From NCBI RefSeq assembly GCF_000266945.1, contig NC_018025.1, forward strand, positions 4,220,001-4,284,000: 64,000 bases of DNA, in the 5' to 3' direction. Position 1 is the stretch's first letter; each line of letters starts with the position of its first letter. The stretch is from Desulfomonile tiedjei DSM 6799 (GTDB taxonomy: Bacteria; Desulfobacterota; Desulfomonilia; Desulfomonilales; Desulfomonilaceae). The position numbers and the translations under genes are program-made. A model generated the notes under the pieces. That model worked only from the letters and a program-made list of their open reading frames with translations, made no database searches and was not told where the DNA came from. This document shows, one piece after another, positions 18,817 to 25,784 of the stretch.

Positions 18817-18890
18817 TTTCATTCAGAGAGAGAAATCGGGGAGGAACTTCTTGTAAGAAGTTCCTCCCCGATTTCTCTCTCTGAATGAAA
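18817..18890. terminator. 36-bp perfect palindrome between convergent genes
   Basis: Perfect inverted repeat with arms 18817-18852 and 18855-18890 and a two-base centre (GT). The core is GGGGAGGAACTTCTT / AAGAAGTTCCTCCCC and the outer part TTTCATTCAGAGAGAGAAAT. It sits between the plus-strand nadE operon and the minus-strand asnB, where a bidirectional terminator is expected, but it is far longer than needed. The core recurs, split apart, at 37502-37752. Confidence 0.75.
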
Positions 18891-21696: not shown

Positions 21697-22045
21697 GGCC
21701 TCATCTGTATGTAGGTAACATTTCAGAGCCTTAGCTCCGGATAGACGAATGCTCCAGACCGGAAGATGATTTCGATCCGAGCACCGGCAATGGAATACCA
21801 TTAATAGGGGATTGGTGTCAAAAAAGGAACGATTGAGAAAAGGAAGGTGCACTTGTTTTCGCATAAAATCTAATCCAAACTGTCGTGCCCCTGGAAGGGA
21901 GAGACTGTCGCAAATCTTGATCCAATTGGAATCTCGTTGAAGAAATGCTTCACGGCCGGACCCAAGGGCCACGGTCTGATACCAACTCCCATGGCGAAGA
22001 GTGCCACAACGAATGATAAAAGTCCTTCCCAGATGAGGGACTCTT

Positions 22046-22180
22046 ATAGGATTTCGCAATTATGCATATAAGATGGCGCAGGTTGAGGTGCTCTGAGCGG
22101 AGTGATTAGACGGCTTTGCGTCGTCTGGAGCGAAGGATACCTCAGCCTCCCAGATTATGAAAAGAAAAGCGAATCAGCAT
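22046..22180. repeat. 136-bp TIR repeat, copy 3 of 4
   Basis: Begins ATAGGATTTCGCAATTATGC and ends AAGCGAATCAGCAT. The interior is nearly identical to copy 2 (GAGCGGAGTGATTAGACGGC). The terminal inverted repeats are more decayed than in copy 2. Confidence 0.82.
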
Positions 22181-22322
22181 GAGATATTGCGACCGCGTTG
22201 GTCCGCTACACACGTCTTTCGATCGTGCCAATACTCATTGTTTTTGACTGTTCGTCCTTTAAACAGAAAATTCAGGTGAAGAGTATGCCTGATATCATGA
22301 AATGATGTATCGAAAGATTTTA

Positions 22323-22351
22323 TTGACAAAAAGATATTGATATCATATTAT
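22323..22351 (+). promoter_or_regulatory. Near-consensus sigma-70 promoter of the two-CW gene
   Basis: TTGACA (22323-22328), a 17-base AT-rich spacer and TATTAT (22346-22351). This is one of the strongest-looking vegetative promoters in the window, 42 bases before the ATG. Confidence 0.75.
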
Positions 22352-22393
22352 ACAGATAGTCATATATTGCAATAATTTATTTGGAGGAGAGGC

Positions 22394-22597
22394 ATGTCTG
22401 AGAGGCTAAATTGTTGGCAAGTTCTCGGTTGTAATAACGAGCAGAATTGTCCGGCGTTTCCGGAACACGGGCGCAATTGTTTCGCGGTCACGGCTACTCT
22501 CTGTAGAGGCGAAACACAGGGGACCTATGATGAAAAAATCGCCAAATGTCGTAAAGGATGCAAATTTTTCCAAGACATGATGGATGGGTCAGTTTAG
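22394..22597 (+). CDS. Small cysteine-rich two-CW domain protein
   Basis: A 67-residue protein with paired Cys-Trp/Cys motifs: LNCWQVLGC..NCPAFPEHGRNCF, ATLCRG and KCRKGCKFF, eight cysteines in all. This spacing matches the small two-CW proteins common in anaerobic Deltaproteobacteria, which probably bind a metal or Fe-S centre. GGAGGAGAGG precedes the ATG. Strong promoter and site suggest it is well expressed. It lies just outside the tRNA-bounded island. Confidence 0.82.
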   Translation: MSERLNCWQVLGCNNEQNCPAFPEHGRNCFAVTATLCRGETQGTYDEKIAKCRKGCKFFQDMMDGSV

Positions 22598-22648
22598 GTC
22601 GTTTGAGGGTTTTCTGCGAAGATTTCTGGACGATTCCATAGGGATTTC

Positions 22649-22672
22649 TGGTGGCAGTGCAGGGACTTGAAC
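22649..22672. repeat. tRNA-Met 3'-end remnant (candidate att site)
   Basis: TGGTGGCAGTGCAGGGACTT and the next four bases (GAAC) match the 3' end of the intact tRNA-Met at 24866-24889 at 22 of 24 positions, in the same orientation. It covers CCA, the acceptor 3' strand and part of the T arm. The rest of a tRNA is absent. This is the pattern left when an element integrates into a tRNA 3' end. Confidence 0.6.
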
Positions 22673-22770
22673 ATCAGGGAGACCGTCCACTCACGTCGGC
22701 AAATATTGGGTGAGCCTTCTTAGTGGGCGGTTCCTTCATCCGTCTTCTTCAGGAAAAATGAATCTCTGAC

Positions 22771-23076
22771 TCAATCATTCTCATCTATGACGAGAAGGCC
22801 TTTCTGAATCAAATGCTCATTATATTCGGATTGACTCATGGGGCACTCTAGTAATGCAATGGTCTCTCTACGCGTTTCCAGCTTAAGCTGCCTTCGCATG
22901 CTCTCCAAGTTGTCTGGCCCAATGTCTTTGTACTTTTTGCTATGAGACATCCACGTCTTAATTCCCGTTTCCTTTCCCTCATAGCAGTGAAAAAAGCATG
23001 GGTGATCGTGAGACTTATCTTTCACAAATCCTTTTGCCTGCAGGCTTTTTTCCGCAAGCTTACGATCTACTTTCAT
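22771..23076 (-). CDS. HicA-like putative toxin
   Basis: A 101-residue protein whose pattern resembles HicA-type mRNA interferases. It has KGFVKDKSHDHPCFF (a glycine then a His where HicA has its catalytic residue), a YEGKETGIKTWMSHS strand, IGPDNLESMRRQLKL where HicA has its final helix, and a longer tail. HicA is usually about 60 residues, so this is an enlarged relative if the match is right. Its start overlaps the end of the upstream HicB-like gene by 17 bases, implying coupled translation. The family call is by eye and tentative. Confidence 0.5.
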   Translation of the reverse strand: MKVDRKLAEKSLQAKGFVKDKSHDHPCFFHCYEGKETGIKTWMSHSKKYKDIGPDNLESMRRQLKLETRRETIALLECPMSQSEYNEHLIQKGLLVIDEND

Positions 23077-23524
23077 CCATTACCTCGAAAGCAGTAGCAA
23101 AGACATTCTTTAGTCTCTTGGCCCCACCTCGTGCTTGAGCTTCGTTCAGGTCCCTATAATGTTCATAAAAACTGAGTAATTGGATGACAAATTCTTCTAT
23201 TGCCTCTTGAGGTGTATCACCAGTGGCGTAAATATCCAATCGCTCGTTCTCGGCAAACCATAAATTCTCTCCCCTCGCAAGTTTGATCGTAACTGGCTTA
23301 AGAGCACGTAAATTCAAACCGTCTCGGCGAAATTGAAAGGCGGGAACTTTGTATTGGTCAGGCAGTGCGTATGACAAATTCTCAGCAGTTCTTACTCTTA
23401 TCGTTCTTGTTTCTCGTTTCTGGGTAGATTCTGGACTTGCCGTGTCTATCCTTTTATCCCATGAAGCCCGAAATCCCTCAATTGGTAGCAGTTCATCAGC
23501 AAATTCTGCAAATGCCCCGGCCAT
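23060..23524 (-). CDS. HicB-like putative antitoxin
   Basis: A 154-residue protein. The central part (KLARGENLWFAENERLDIYATGDTPQEA is the region, about 83-110) resembles the partial RNase H fold of HicB antitoxins, in which a GDT..EA turn leads into a helix. The C terminus (EFVIQLLSFYEHYRDL and onward) is helical. No DNA-binding domain is obvious. It sits between the TIGR04255 gene (one-base gap) and the HicA-like gene (17-base overlap), so the three form one unit. Assignment is tentative. Confidence 0.5.
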   Translation of the reverse strand: MAGAFAEFADELLPIEGFRASWDKRIDTASPESTQKRETRTIRVRTAENLSYALPDQYKVPAFQFRRDGLNLRALKPVTIKLARGENLWFAENERLDIYATGDTPQEAIEEFVIQLLSFYEHYRDLNEAQARGGAKRLKNVFATAFEVMDESRS

Positions 23525-23525
23525 T

Positions 23526-24296
23526 CTACGTCTCCTCGCCTTTTATGTACGCACGGTAGTTCTCTGTAATGAGTGTATGAAAAAGCAAGGCCGATTCCGT
23601 GTGCGCTTCATCAAGATACTCTTCGATTCGGTCAAACTCTAGATCTCCTTCGGATTTCGCGTAATCGAAATCCAGTAGAAATGCTTCCTGTCCCCCGTCA
23701 GTCCTCATAACTGATTCTATGCGTGTTGTAATTTTTCCTTTGCCAGCAGGGAGTACGAATGCAGTGCTGAAATTCTCAAATCTCCCCGGAAAAAGATTCA
23801 TCATTTCCTTACAAAACACAAAAAAATGCTCCAATGGAAGAAGCCTGTTCTCTCTCACAAATGGAATAATATTCACGTGCCTGAGGCCAACACGATTCAG
23901 CTCATTCAACTTTATGATGGAACCAAACAATCCCAGTAAACGCAGATACTCTTTTTTGAAATCTTCGAATCCCGGATAAGCTCGAGAGAAATAACCGAAT
24001 CTATTCAGAGACACCATGACGCCTGCACTAGCATCCGATTTCTCAAATCGGTATGGTTCCAACGCATAAGCCATTCCATCTTGGATTTTCGGCACGAGCA
24101 GATTCGGGTAAATATCTCTGATGCAATCCTGGATTTCGGACCGTTTACACTCAATGGCAGTCTCACCTGGAAAACGAATCTCAAATACCACTTCAATCAA
24201 TGGTGAGTTAGGATGTCGGTTATCGGGTATGAGGTTCACTTCGCCGCTCACATAGTAGACTAAAGTAATTCTATTTCCGTTGACACCCGGAGTCAA
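23526..24296 (-). CDS. TIGR04255 family protein
   Basis: A 256-residue soluble protein. The segment SPLIEVVFEIRFPGE near residue 30 is the hallmark of TIGR04255, a sporadically distributed family of unknown function. The rest (EPYRFEKSD, RVGLRHVNI, SALLFHTLITENYRAYI) fits the same family throughout. It is the first gene of the three-gene unit. Patchy distribution and location next to a tRNA both fit horizontal transfer. A defence or regulatory role is only a guess. Confidence 0.75.
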   Translation of the reverse strand: MTPGVNGNRITLVYYVSGEVNLIPDNRHPNSPLIEVVFEIRFPGETAIECKRSEIQDCIRDIYPNLLVPKIQDGMAYALEPYRFEKSDASAGVMVSLNRFGYFSRAYPGFEDFKKEYLRLLGLFGSIIKLNELNRVGLRHVNIIPFVRENRLLPLEHFFVFCKEMMNLFPGRFENFSTAFVLPAGKGKITTRIESVMRTDGGQEAFLLDFDYAKSEGDLEFDRIEEYLDEAHTESALLFHTLITENYRAYIKGEET

Positions 24297-24404
24297 TCAG
24301 AAGCAATTGAGGACTTTAGCGAGTCAGACCTTCTAACGCAAGCGAATTGAGCAAAATCACGAGGCGATCCTTCGCAAAAAAAAAGGCGCTAGTCTGAAAA
24401 AAGT

Positions 24405-24418
24405 TTGTTCAAGAACAA
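24405..24418. promoter_or_regulatory. Small inverted repeat TTGTTC-AA-GAACAA
   Basis: A six-base inverted repeat with a two-base centre in the gap between the divergent TIGR04255 operon (minus) and the 56-codon ORF (plus). Its position would suit an operator controlling either. No protein is assigned. Confidence 0.3.
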
Positions 24419-24478
24419 TTAGACGACACAAAGGAATTCCGTGAAGCAAAGGTAGATAATTTTAAGGAGGGCCTCAAA

Positions 24479-24649
24479 ATGTCCACTGAAATTTATACCG
24501 CAAGATGGAAATGCAAGAATCGGACAACATTTCAAGCGATGGGATTGCCGAAAAACCTCGCGCTTTGTTGTGGATGCCCAAGCCTTCGCCGACTCACAAT
24601 TGATCAGGCTGAACTTCATCTGGTATGCTTGCAGCCGGTCAGACGGTGA
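24479..24649 (+). CDS. Short cysteine-containing ORF (56 codons)
   Basis: ATG 24479 follows AAGGAGG by eight bases, one of the best ribosome binding sites in the window. The product begins MSTEIYTARWKCKNRTTF and contains LALCCGCPSLRRL. It lies inside the tRNA-bounded island, divergent from the toxin-antitoxin-like unit. I recognise no family. The ribosome binding site is the main support; the composition is neutral. Confidence 0.4.
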   Translation: MSTEIYTARWKCKNRTTFQAMGLPKNLALCCGCPSLRRLTIDQAELHLVCLQPVRR

Positions 24650-24865
24650 ACCGAAATCGCCTTTCAATCAACATTCTCTGGGAGCGATTAGCCCTGCAAG
24701 ACGATTCAACCGAATAACTGCCTGTGACTAATACAGATCACTTAGGGGGATCAGGGTCACCCCGTTAGGAAGGCTCTGATCCTGTCCAGCAGACTGTGAA
24801 AAAATTTGCATACACTTTTTCGAGGGTAATTTGTGGCTATTTCTGAATGATTTCAAAGGGAGCAT

Positions 24866-24942
24866 TGGTGGCGGTGCAGGGATTTGAACCCCGGACACTG
24901 CGGATATGAGCCGCATGCTCTAACCGACTGAGCTACACCGCC
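24866..24942 (-). tRNA. tRNA-Met (anticodon CAT)
   Basis: Read on the minus strand from 24942: GGCGGTGTAGCTCAGTCGGT.. with D arm, anticodon stem TGCGG, loop CTCATAT and stem CCGCA, T arm with GGTTCAAATCC, acceptor CACCGCC and encoded CCA (24868-24866). Anticodon CAT. An elongator methionine tRNA is likely; a lysidine-modified Ile tRNA cannot be excluded without comparison. Its 3' end is partly duplicated at 22649-22672. Confidence 0.93.
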
Positions 24943-25014
24943 TTAACCAGATACTCATAACAGTACAGGAACGGGCTGTCAAGTGTCGCAAGCAAGACCA
25001 AAGGCCGGGATCTC

Positions 25015-25707
25015 CTAAAAAGGGGCATTCTTGAATATGCTGAAACATTTGTTTTTTCCCACGACAACAGAGTCCGTCAGAGTTATCTCAAAGGGATGAA
25101 GAATTTCTCTCAGACGCTCTGCCTTCACGATCGCGGACAGATGGGAGTGGCGGTCCGTCGGGATGATTGTGAGCTATGATCAATGACGTTGCATTGTAGT
25201 GAGAGCGCGTTCCATCACTTGACGGGGAAACAGAACCACCTGGTCTACGGTACCGGCTCCGAGTATTTCCTGTCCCAGGACTATGCCGTGATCGTCCAGG
25301 AATACGAGGAGCACGTTTTCGTCTTTCATGGTGCTGAGCCATGCAAGGAGAAACTGTTCCACTTCCTTCGAGTTCACCAGAACTTGAGGACTTGGGGCCA
25401 TCGTCTCGCTAAAGCGTTCGAGAATCTCACCTACAAGTCTGATGAGCGTCGCCGCATCTCGATCCATACCTTTCACCTGGAGCAGTTCCACGGAAGACGT
25501 CAAAAAGATCGCACGCATTGAATGAAAGGTGCGTTTGAGTTCTTCCGCCACCTCTTGCGGACTGCTTGCCGAAGACACGTACGTCAGCAGTAGTTCCAGC
25601 AGATCCCAGTCCGTGAGTTTGCCCGATCTGAGGAGTTTTTCTTTTATTTCAGCTTCTCGATCCGTCTTATTCTCCATAAGAAATGTCGGCAGCCCCATCT
25701 CAACCAT
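25015..25707 (-). pseudogene. radC: radC-like gene with two compensating frameshifts
   Basis: RadC/JAB family protein (once linked to DNA repair, real role unclear). From ATG 25707 the frame is intact for 175 codons, including DRDAATLIRLVGEI and GIVLGQEILGAGTVDQV, then hits TGA at 25180. The metal-binding core continues in another frame (NATSLIIAHNHPDGPPLPS), and the last part (AERLREILHPFEITLTDSVV) is back in the first frame, ending with TAG at 25015-25017. Two opposite indels, near 25195 and 25135, explain this. The JAMM motif itself lies in the shifted part, so the product is truncated unless the sequence has errors. Confidence 0.8.
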
Positions 25708-25784
25708 AAGCTTGCGTTCTTTAAGTCATAGTAGCATAATCGCGAAATTCGATTGAATCATTTCGCACTATGTAAAGGGAATTC

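Follow-up and report, generated by a model that had tools for sequence, protein, structure and literature searches.

The analyzed stretch of DNA (hereafter the window) is 64 kb long and corresponds to positions 4,220,001-4,284,000 of contig 1 of the Desulfomonile tiedjei genome (G000; 6,527,027 bases in 2 contigs). Three consecutive minus-strand open reading frames (ORFs) in the window, referred to here as the trio, lie at 23526-24296, 23060-23524, and 22771-23076 and encode a TIGR04255 family protein, a 154-aa antitoxin-like protein, and a 101-aa HicA-like toxin candidate, respectively. A preliminary description of this locus had noted a one-base gap between the first two genes and a 17-base overlap between the last two, and both spacings are correct. 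The overlap measures 4 bases in relatives of the trio at loci L002 and L005, compared to 17 in the window. In other words, tight coupling is conserved among relatives but the exact 17 bases are not. The TIGR04255 gene is present as described, but its start was placed at a TTG codon at 24296, the point to which the open frame reaches. The true start is most likely a GTG codon at 24251, chosen from conservation, which gives a gene of 23526..24251 and a protein of 241 aa. The TTG codon is probably not the start because similarity to relatives begins at the GTG, and because a promoter-like site (TTGACT-17-TAGAAT; 24268..24296, minus strand) overlies the supposed upstream codons. This site lies just upstream of the GTG start and came from a consensus scan (10/12 matches); it is a consensus match only, and the number of such sites in the region was not above that in shuffles.

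The assignment of the first protein to TIGR04255, proposed earlier, holds at 101.2 bits against an NCBIfam cut-off of 30 (E 8.1e-29), with the match covering model positions 3-249 of 252. It is the only TIGR04255 gene in this genome. A Pfam scan of the protein found no DNA-binding domain, and it matched neither an enzyme family nor a PADLOC model. An AlphaFold model built from 3 sequences was poor (pLDDT 51.6), a Foldseek search with that model returned no match, and the rows returned by VIA-align (Z ≤5.5) were unrelated proteins; hence, no fold is claimed for TIGR04255. Homology to SecB was considered and rejected, as there was no Pfam SecB match and hhalign gave a probability of 0.4 against 7 SecB sequences. 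A search of the open-access literature found no paper naming TIGR04255 or CHP04255.

What is the 101-aa protein (22771..23076)? It matched nothing in Pfam, NCBIfam, or PADLOC and no sequence in the PDB, and a direct comparison with the Pfam HicA family (PF07927) gave no match at E up to 10. A relationship emerged when hhalign was used to match an alignment of 13 relatives to a profile built from 30 HicA proteins (probability 94.3, E 1e-7, score 39.8), with residues 7-66 forming the HicA-like core. Forty column-shuffled versions of the alignment scored at most 14.4, and comparisons with HicB and SecB gave no signal. Further evidence comes from an AlphaFold model based on two sequences (pLDDT 61.7), in which the protein is predicted to fold as α-β-β-β-α followed by two helices. 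Foldseek found nothing significant with this model. A structure comparison gave low Z scores of 3.6 for 1whz, 2.8 for HicA 6hpb, and 2.2 for HicA 6g26, and HicA structures made up 3 of the best 4 rows among the few structures that reached Z 2. Taken singly, the structural values are weak, but the predicted structure agrees with the sequence in pointing to the HicA family. A histidine, H25, is invariant across the third proteins of the trios, and the profile alignment places it one column off the catalytic histidine of the HicA GSH motif. Beyond the core, the protein carries a C-terminal extension (LLxCPMSxxxYNxxL) whose CPMSxxxYNxxL part is common to all trio members and less strict in relatives that lack TIGR04255. 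As a toxin, this HicA-like protein would most likely be an RNase. A plasmid scan found no copy of the 101-aa protein.

The 154-aa protein (23060..23524) has a variable N-terminal part of ~45-60 residues and a conserved C-terminal part. About residues 84-126 resemble HicB in the hhalign comparison (probability 65.6, E 5.8e-5, score 29.1 over about 42 columns), in which column shuffles scored at most 11.5. Pfam returned no HicB match for this protein and a PHD_like match below cut-off (E 0.0033). The preliminary description had called the second and third proteins HicB-like and HicA-like. The HicA-like call is supported by profile comparison and, weakly, by the predicted fold; the HicB-like call holds for the C-terminal stretch, where the signal is weaker than in the HicA case. 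Since both small proteins fall short of the HicA and HicB cut-offs in Pfam and NCBIfam, "HicA-like" and "HicB-like" are the safe terms.

The trio appears to sit in an inserted 2.2-kb segment (22673..24865). One border of this segment is the 3' end of a tRNA-Met (CAT) gene on the minus strand (24866..24942; found by ARAGORN, Rfam tRNA 69.3 bits). The other border is an att-like direct repeat on the plus strand (22648..22672), where 25 nt of the tRNA-Met 3' end recur as a displaced copy. The copy differs by 1 mismatch from the tRNA end at the corresponding site of genome G009 and by 3 from the tRNA of the window itself, and no other position in the 64-kb window comes closer to the 25-nt tRNA end than 8 mismatches. 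In G001, a genome of the same genus, and in G009, the trio is absent and a glycosyltransferase gene lies ~220-270 bases from tRNA-Met. The segment is AT-rich (GC 44.3%, compared to 50.3% for the window), and it contains no other recognized gene beyond the trio and no visible integrase. These features are consistent with integration at the tRNA with displacement of the old 3' end, and they support the mobile or island setting that had been suggested for the locus. The window also carries a further ~0.8 kb (about 21840-22640) that is absent from G001, which indicates that the region has changed more than once. A small cysteine-rich ORF of 67 aa (22394-22597, plus strand) lies within that stretch. 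On the other side, a RadC-like gene beside the tRNA (25000-25720, minus strand) contains an apparent frameshift, its N-terminal part and its "IIAHNHPDG" part being in different frames. Farther away, a perfect 36-nt inverted repeat with a 2-nt loop (18817-18890), probably a terminator, lies downstream of an asparagine synthase-like gene. The tRNA site is a feature of the window and not of the class, because no tRNA gene was found near the other TIGR04255 loci in the stretches of genome that were scanned. Carriage of the trio by phages was also considered and rejected: the viral contigs scanned yielded no protein of the trio and a single remote TIGR04255, and the one annotated-phage record that matched had no clear trio downstream.

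Intact trios are also found at L005 and at L002, which shares its contig with L004; their TIGR04255 proteins are 61-63% identical to that of the window, their second proteins 50%, and their third proteins 60-63%. More remote trios of lower identity are present at L022, L024, and L032. The closest trio in one collection scan came from a metagenome-assembled genome labeled D. tiedjei. The trio is thus kept in other Desulfobacterota, and conservation of all three proteins as a unit in separate genera argues that it is more than a chance arrangement. It is very improbable that these are ordinary genes that became neighbors by chance and have no toxin-antitoxin (TA) function: such an origin would leave unaccounted for the conserved trio, the island at the tRNA, and the known TA toxin families that occupy the third position at other loci (see below). 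The trio is a real, conserved, and probably mobile TA-like cassette, and the TA-like character proposed for it is supported.

Does TIGR04255 belong to HicBA-like pairs only? A survey covering Desulfobacterota and a handful of plasmid and phage records found TIGR04255 in 23/297 and 31/395 genomes of Desulfobacterota (overlapping samples) and on a few plasmids of Thermus, Rhizobium, Crinalium, Vibrio, Pantoea, Methylocystis, Chroococcidiopsis, Acinetobacter, and Phocaeicola. Partners were defined as the next two same-strand ORFs by a fixed ORF rule, not by a gene caller. By this rule, tight three-gene units occur at 42 of the 51 TIGR04255 loci, compared to 10 of 133 other long ORFs; among the genes of the window, 3 of 46 begin tight trios, one of which is the TIGR04255 trio itself. 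The third gene is HicA-like at 6 loci. At others, it belongs to HEPN (5 loci), PIN (5), PemK (2), zeta (1), or DUF7689 (3), the last with a fourth gene in the middle. The Pfam E-values were 7.6e-9 for PIN, 1.7e-13 for PemK, 3.3e-12 for zeta toxin, and 1.4e-40 for DUF7689. PIN, PemK, and zeta pass the Pfam cut-offs, whereas the HEPN match is weak and falls below them (E 0.0042). The third gene on the Vibrio plasmid is annotated as a zeta toxin. Further third-gene families without a name are designated here by motif as xxCD, HANI, and SHSGIY. The xxCD group, defined by an S/QxCD motif (L130, L132, L133, L136, L161, L163, L117, L056, L057, and L058), is a loose one joined partly by eye; the members scanned had no convincing Pfam match and are candidate toxins of no named family. 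Most of the middle proteins scanned matched no known antitoxin family, while the one at L058 carries a helix-turn-helix (HTH) domain (Phage_CI_repr, E 4.4e-6).

The HicA-like third gene thus recurs, but TIGR04255 usually stands with other toxin families. Conversely, some relatives of the HicBA-like pair (L041, L042, and L046) have no TIGR04255 gene in the fetched DNA. The idea that TIGR04255 is an obligate partner of a HicBA-like pair thus does not stand, and TIGR04255 is not always needed by the pair. At L039 (438-1511) and L040 (1782-2861), open frames of 357-359 aa have a longer N-terminal part ahead of the antitoxin-like domain, a HicA-like gene comes next, and no TIGR04255 was found beside these genes in the fetched DNA. 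An apparent remnant is present at L036 (1501-1888), where the HicA-like gene is intact, the antitoxin is reduced to ~40 aa, TIGR04255 is absent, and a polA-like gene adjoins. The comparison with ~50 other loci suggests that TIGR04255 is a general third partner combined with many TA pairs. In other words, TIGR04255 appears to head a general three-gene architecture whose cargo can be exchanged, and the HicBA-like pair is one of about nine such cargoes.

The history of these combinations can be read from a maximum-likelihood tree of 46 TIGR04255 proteins with ten partner labels. The labels change 14 times on this tree, compared to a minimum of 9 and a shuffled mean of 32. Partners thus appear to be mostly inherited, with clear exchanges inside well-supported TIGR04255 clades. 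The HicA-like trios form a single clade (96/98). Mixed clades combine PemK, HEPN, and xxCD (99/98), PIN and HEPN (95/92), and PIN and xxCD (100/100). Loci L117 and L119 provide the clearest example of an exchange: their TIGR04255 proteins are 84% identical, yet their toxins come from different families. Their middle proteins are 55% identical over residues 1-76, with no similarity detectable beyond. Three PemK relatives (73, 63, and 56% identity) had no TIGR04255 detected in the fetched DNA, and the match between antitoxins is then confined to the C-terminal ~44 residues. Antitoxins of the L117/L119 clade are thus two-part proteins whose N-terminus goes with TIGR04255 and whose C-terminus goes with the toxin. 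The clear case of an N-terminal adaptor comes from this one clade. In the remaining groups, BLAST alignments between middle proteins mostly skip the first 30-85 residues, and the N-terminal 40 residues of middle proteins have less charge (p 0.0013) and more Ser/Thr (p 2.5e-5), neither bias being present in third proteins; these observations are supporting but not decisive. The antitoxin of the window also has its variable part at the N-terminus. A search of 198 genomes for PIN relatives without TIGR04255 found none beyond one locus already known.

How might TIGR04255 act on these pairs? One possibility is that it serves as a co-antitoxin in direct contact with the toxin or with the toxin-antitoxin complex and has no stabilizing effect on the antitoxin. 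The tight coupling of all three genes would suit such a role. However, near-identical TIGR04255 proteins occur with unrelated toxins, which argues against a toxin-specific surface, and we consider direct binding of this kind unlikely. Another possibility stems from the position of the gene. In omega-epsilon-zeta and PaaR-PaaA-ParE, the first gene encodes a transcriptional regulator of the TA operon, and TIGR04255, as the first gene of its unit, occupies this usual regulator place. It could then regulate the operon without touching the antitoxin. Yet no DNA-binding domain was found in TIGR04255 whereas some middle proteins, such as that of L058, carry an HTH, so the antitoxin seems to be the regulator at these loci. 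Moreover, an antitoxin N-terminus that travels with TIGR04255 while the toxin is swapped is not expected of a regulator. A regulator role appears quite unlikely.

Several TIGR04255 units have neighbors of other kinds. A PglZ-domain protein (L116:1207-3744) and a ResIII protein (L122:3672-6497) directly follow two of the PIN-type trios in what looks like a defense-island setting, an abortive-infection protein lies upstream of L056, and the unit on the Rhizobium plasmid comes after a multiubiquitin/ThiF/DUF6527 operon (L052:159-2456). TIGR04255 could, on the strength of the PglZ, ResIII, and abortive-infection neighbors, be the main effector or sensor of a defense system, with the TA pair as its regulated killing device or as an addiction passenger. 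This is improbable given that no enzyme family or PADLOC model matched the TIGR04255 protein of the window and that its segment holds no other recognized gene. A defense role of the trio itself is plausible, and it is suggested only by neighbors such as those at L116 and L122.

We favor, with moderate confidence, a model in which the trio is a mobile tripartite TA-like cassette comprising a HicA-like toxin, the 154-aa antitoxin, and TIGR04255 as a dedicated third component that acts via the antitoxin. The C-terminal part of the antitoxin would hold the toxin, and TIGR04255 would bind the variable N-terminus, thereby stabilizing or completing the antitoxin. If TIGR04255 were lost or titrated, as an invading phage might bring about, the antitoxin would fail and the toxin would act. 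The sequence basis of this model consists of the conserved trio, HicA-like homology, the tRNA island, the many swappable toxin families that follow TIGR04255, and, in one clear case, antitoxins made of two parts. From these we infer toxicity, neutralization, direct contact between TIGR04255 and the antitoxin, a chaperone-like or sensor action, and defense. The same idea can be extended, more tentatively, to the whole family: TIGR04255 may be a second, non-SecB class of general TA controller that serves at least five established toxin families (HicA-like, PIN, PemK, HEPN, and zeta) and several unknown ones through N-terminal antitoxin adaptors, is carried in a mobile cassette, and probably functions in phage defense. 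A sporadic family of unknown function thereby gains a testable role as the common third component of swappable TA pairs, and association with it makes toxin candidates of xxCD, HANI, SHSGIY, and DUF7689.

The trio most likely belongs to a broader class of tripartite TA systems that is not named in the literature searched. HicA and HicB have been found strictly as a unique pair, domain fusions aside (PMC2701414). The trio resembles HicAB (PF07927/PF15919) in the predicted α-β-β-β-α core of its toxin candidate and in the HicB-like stretch of its antitoxin candidate. It differs in that its proteins fall below the Pfam cut-offs, its toxin candidate is 101 aa long with a conserved C-terminal extension, and there is a third gene. 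Panacea (PanA) antitoxins are hyperpromiscuous, one family being combined with many toxin families (PMC8832971, PMC10440598), as is TIGR04255. In that system, however, the promiscuous element is an antitoxin domain, whereas TIGR04255 is a separate protein beside a changing antitoxin. The closest precedent appears to be the toxin-antitoxin-chaperone (TAC) systems, in which a SecB-like chaperone works with HigBA, HicAB, or MqsRA and protects the antitoxin through a graftable C-terminal extension (PMC5105189). In CmdTAC, detection of a phage capsid leads to loss of the chaperone and release of the toxin (PMC11618068). Like TAC, the TIGR04255 units are three-gene operons in which one third-component family is combined with unrelated TA families, HicAB included, and in which antitoxins have an additional segment associated with the third component. 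Unlike the TAC chaperone, TIGR04255 (~240-260 aa) has no SecB similarity and is encoded first in its unit; the antitoxin segment linked to it appears to be N-terminal in the one resolved case, whereas the TAC extension is C-terminal; and its toxin range also takes in PIN, PemK, HEPN, and zeta. Chaperone-like control of TA systems may therefore have arisen more than once, and TAC and the TIGR04255 units have their logic in common but not their parts.
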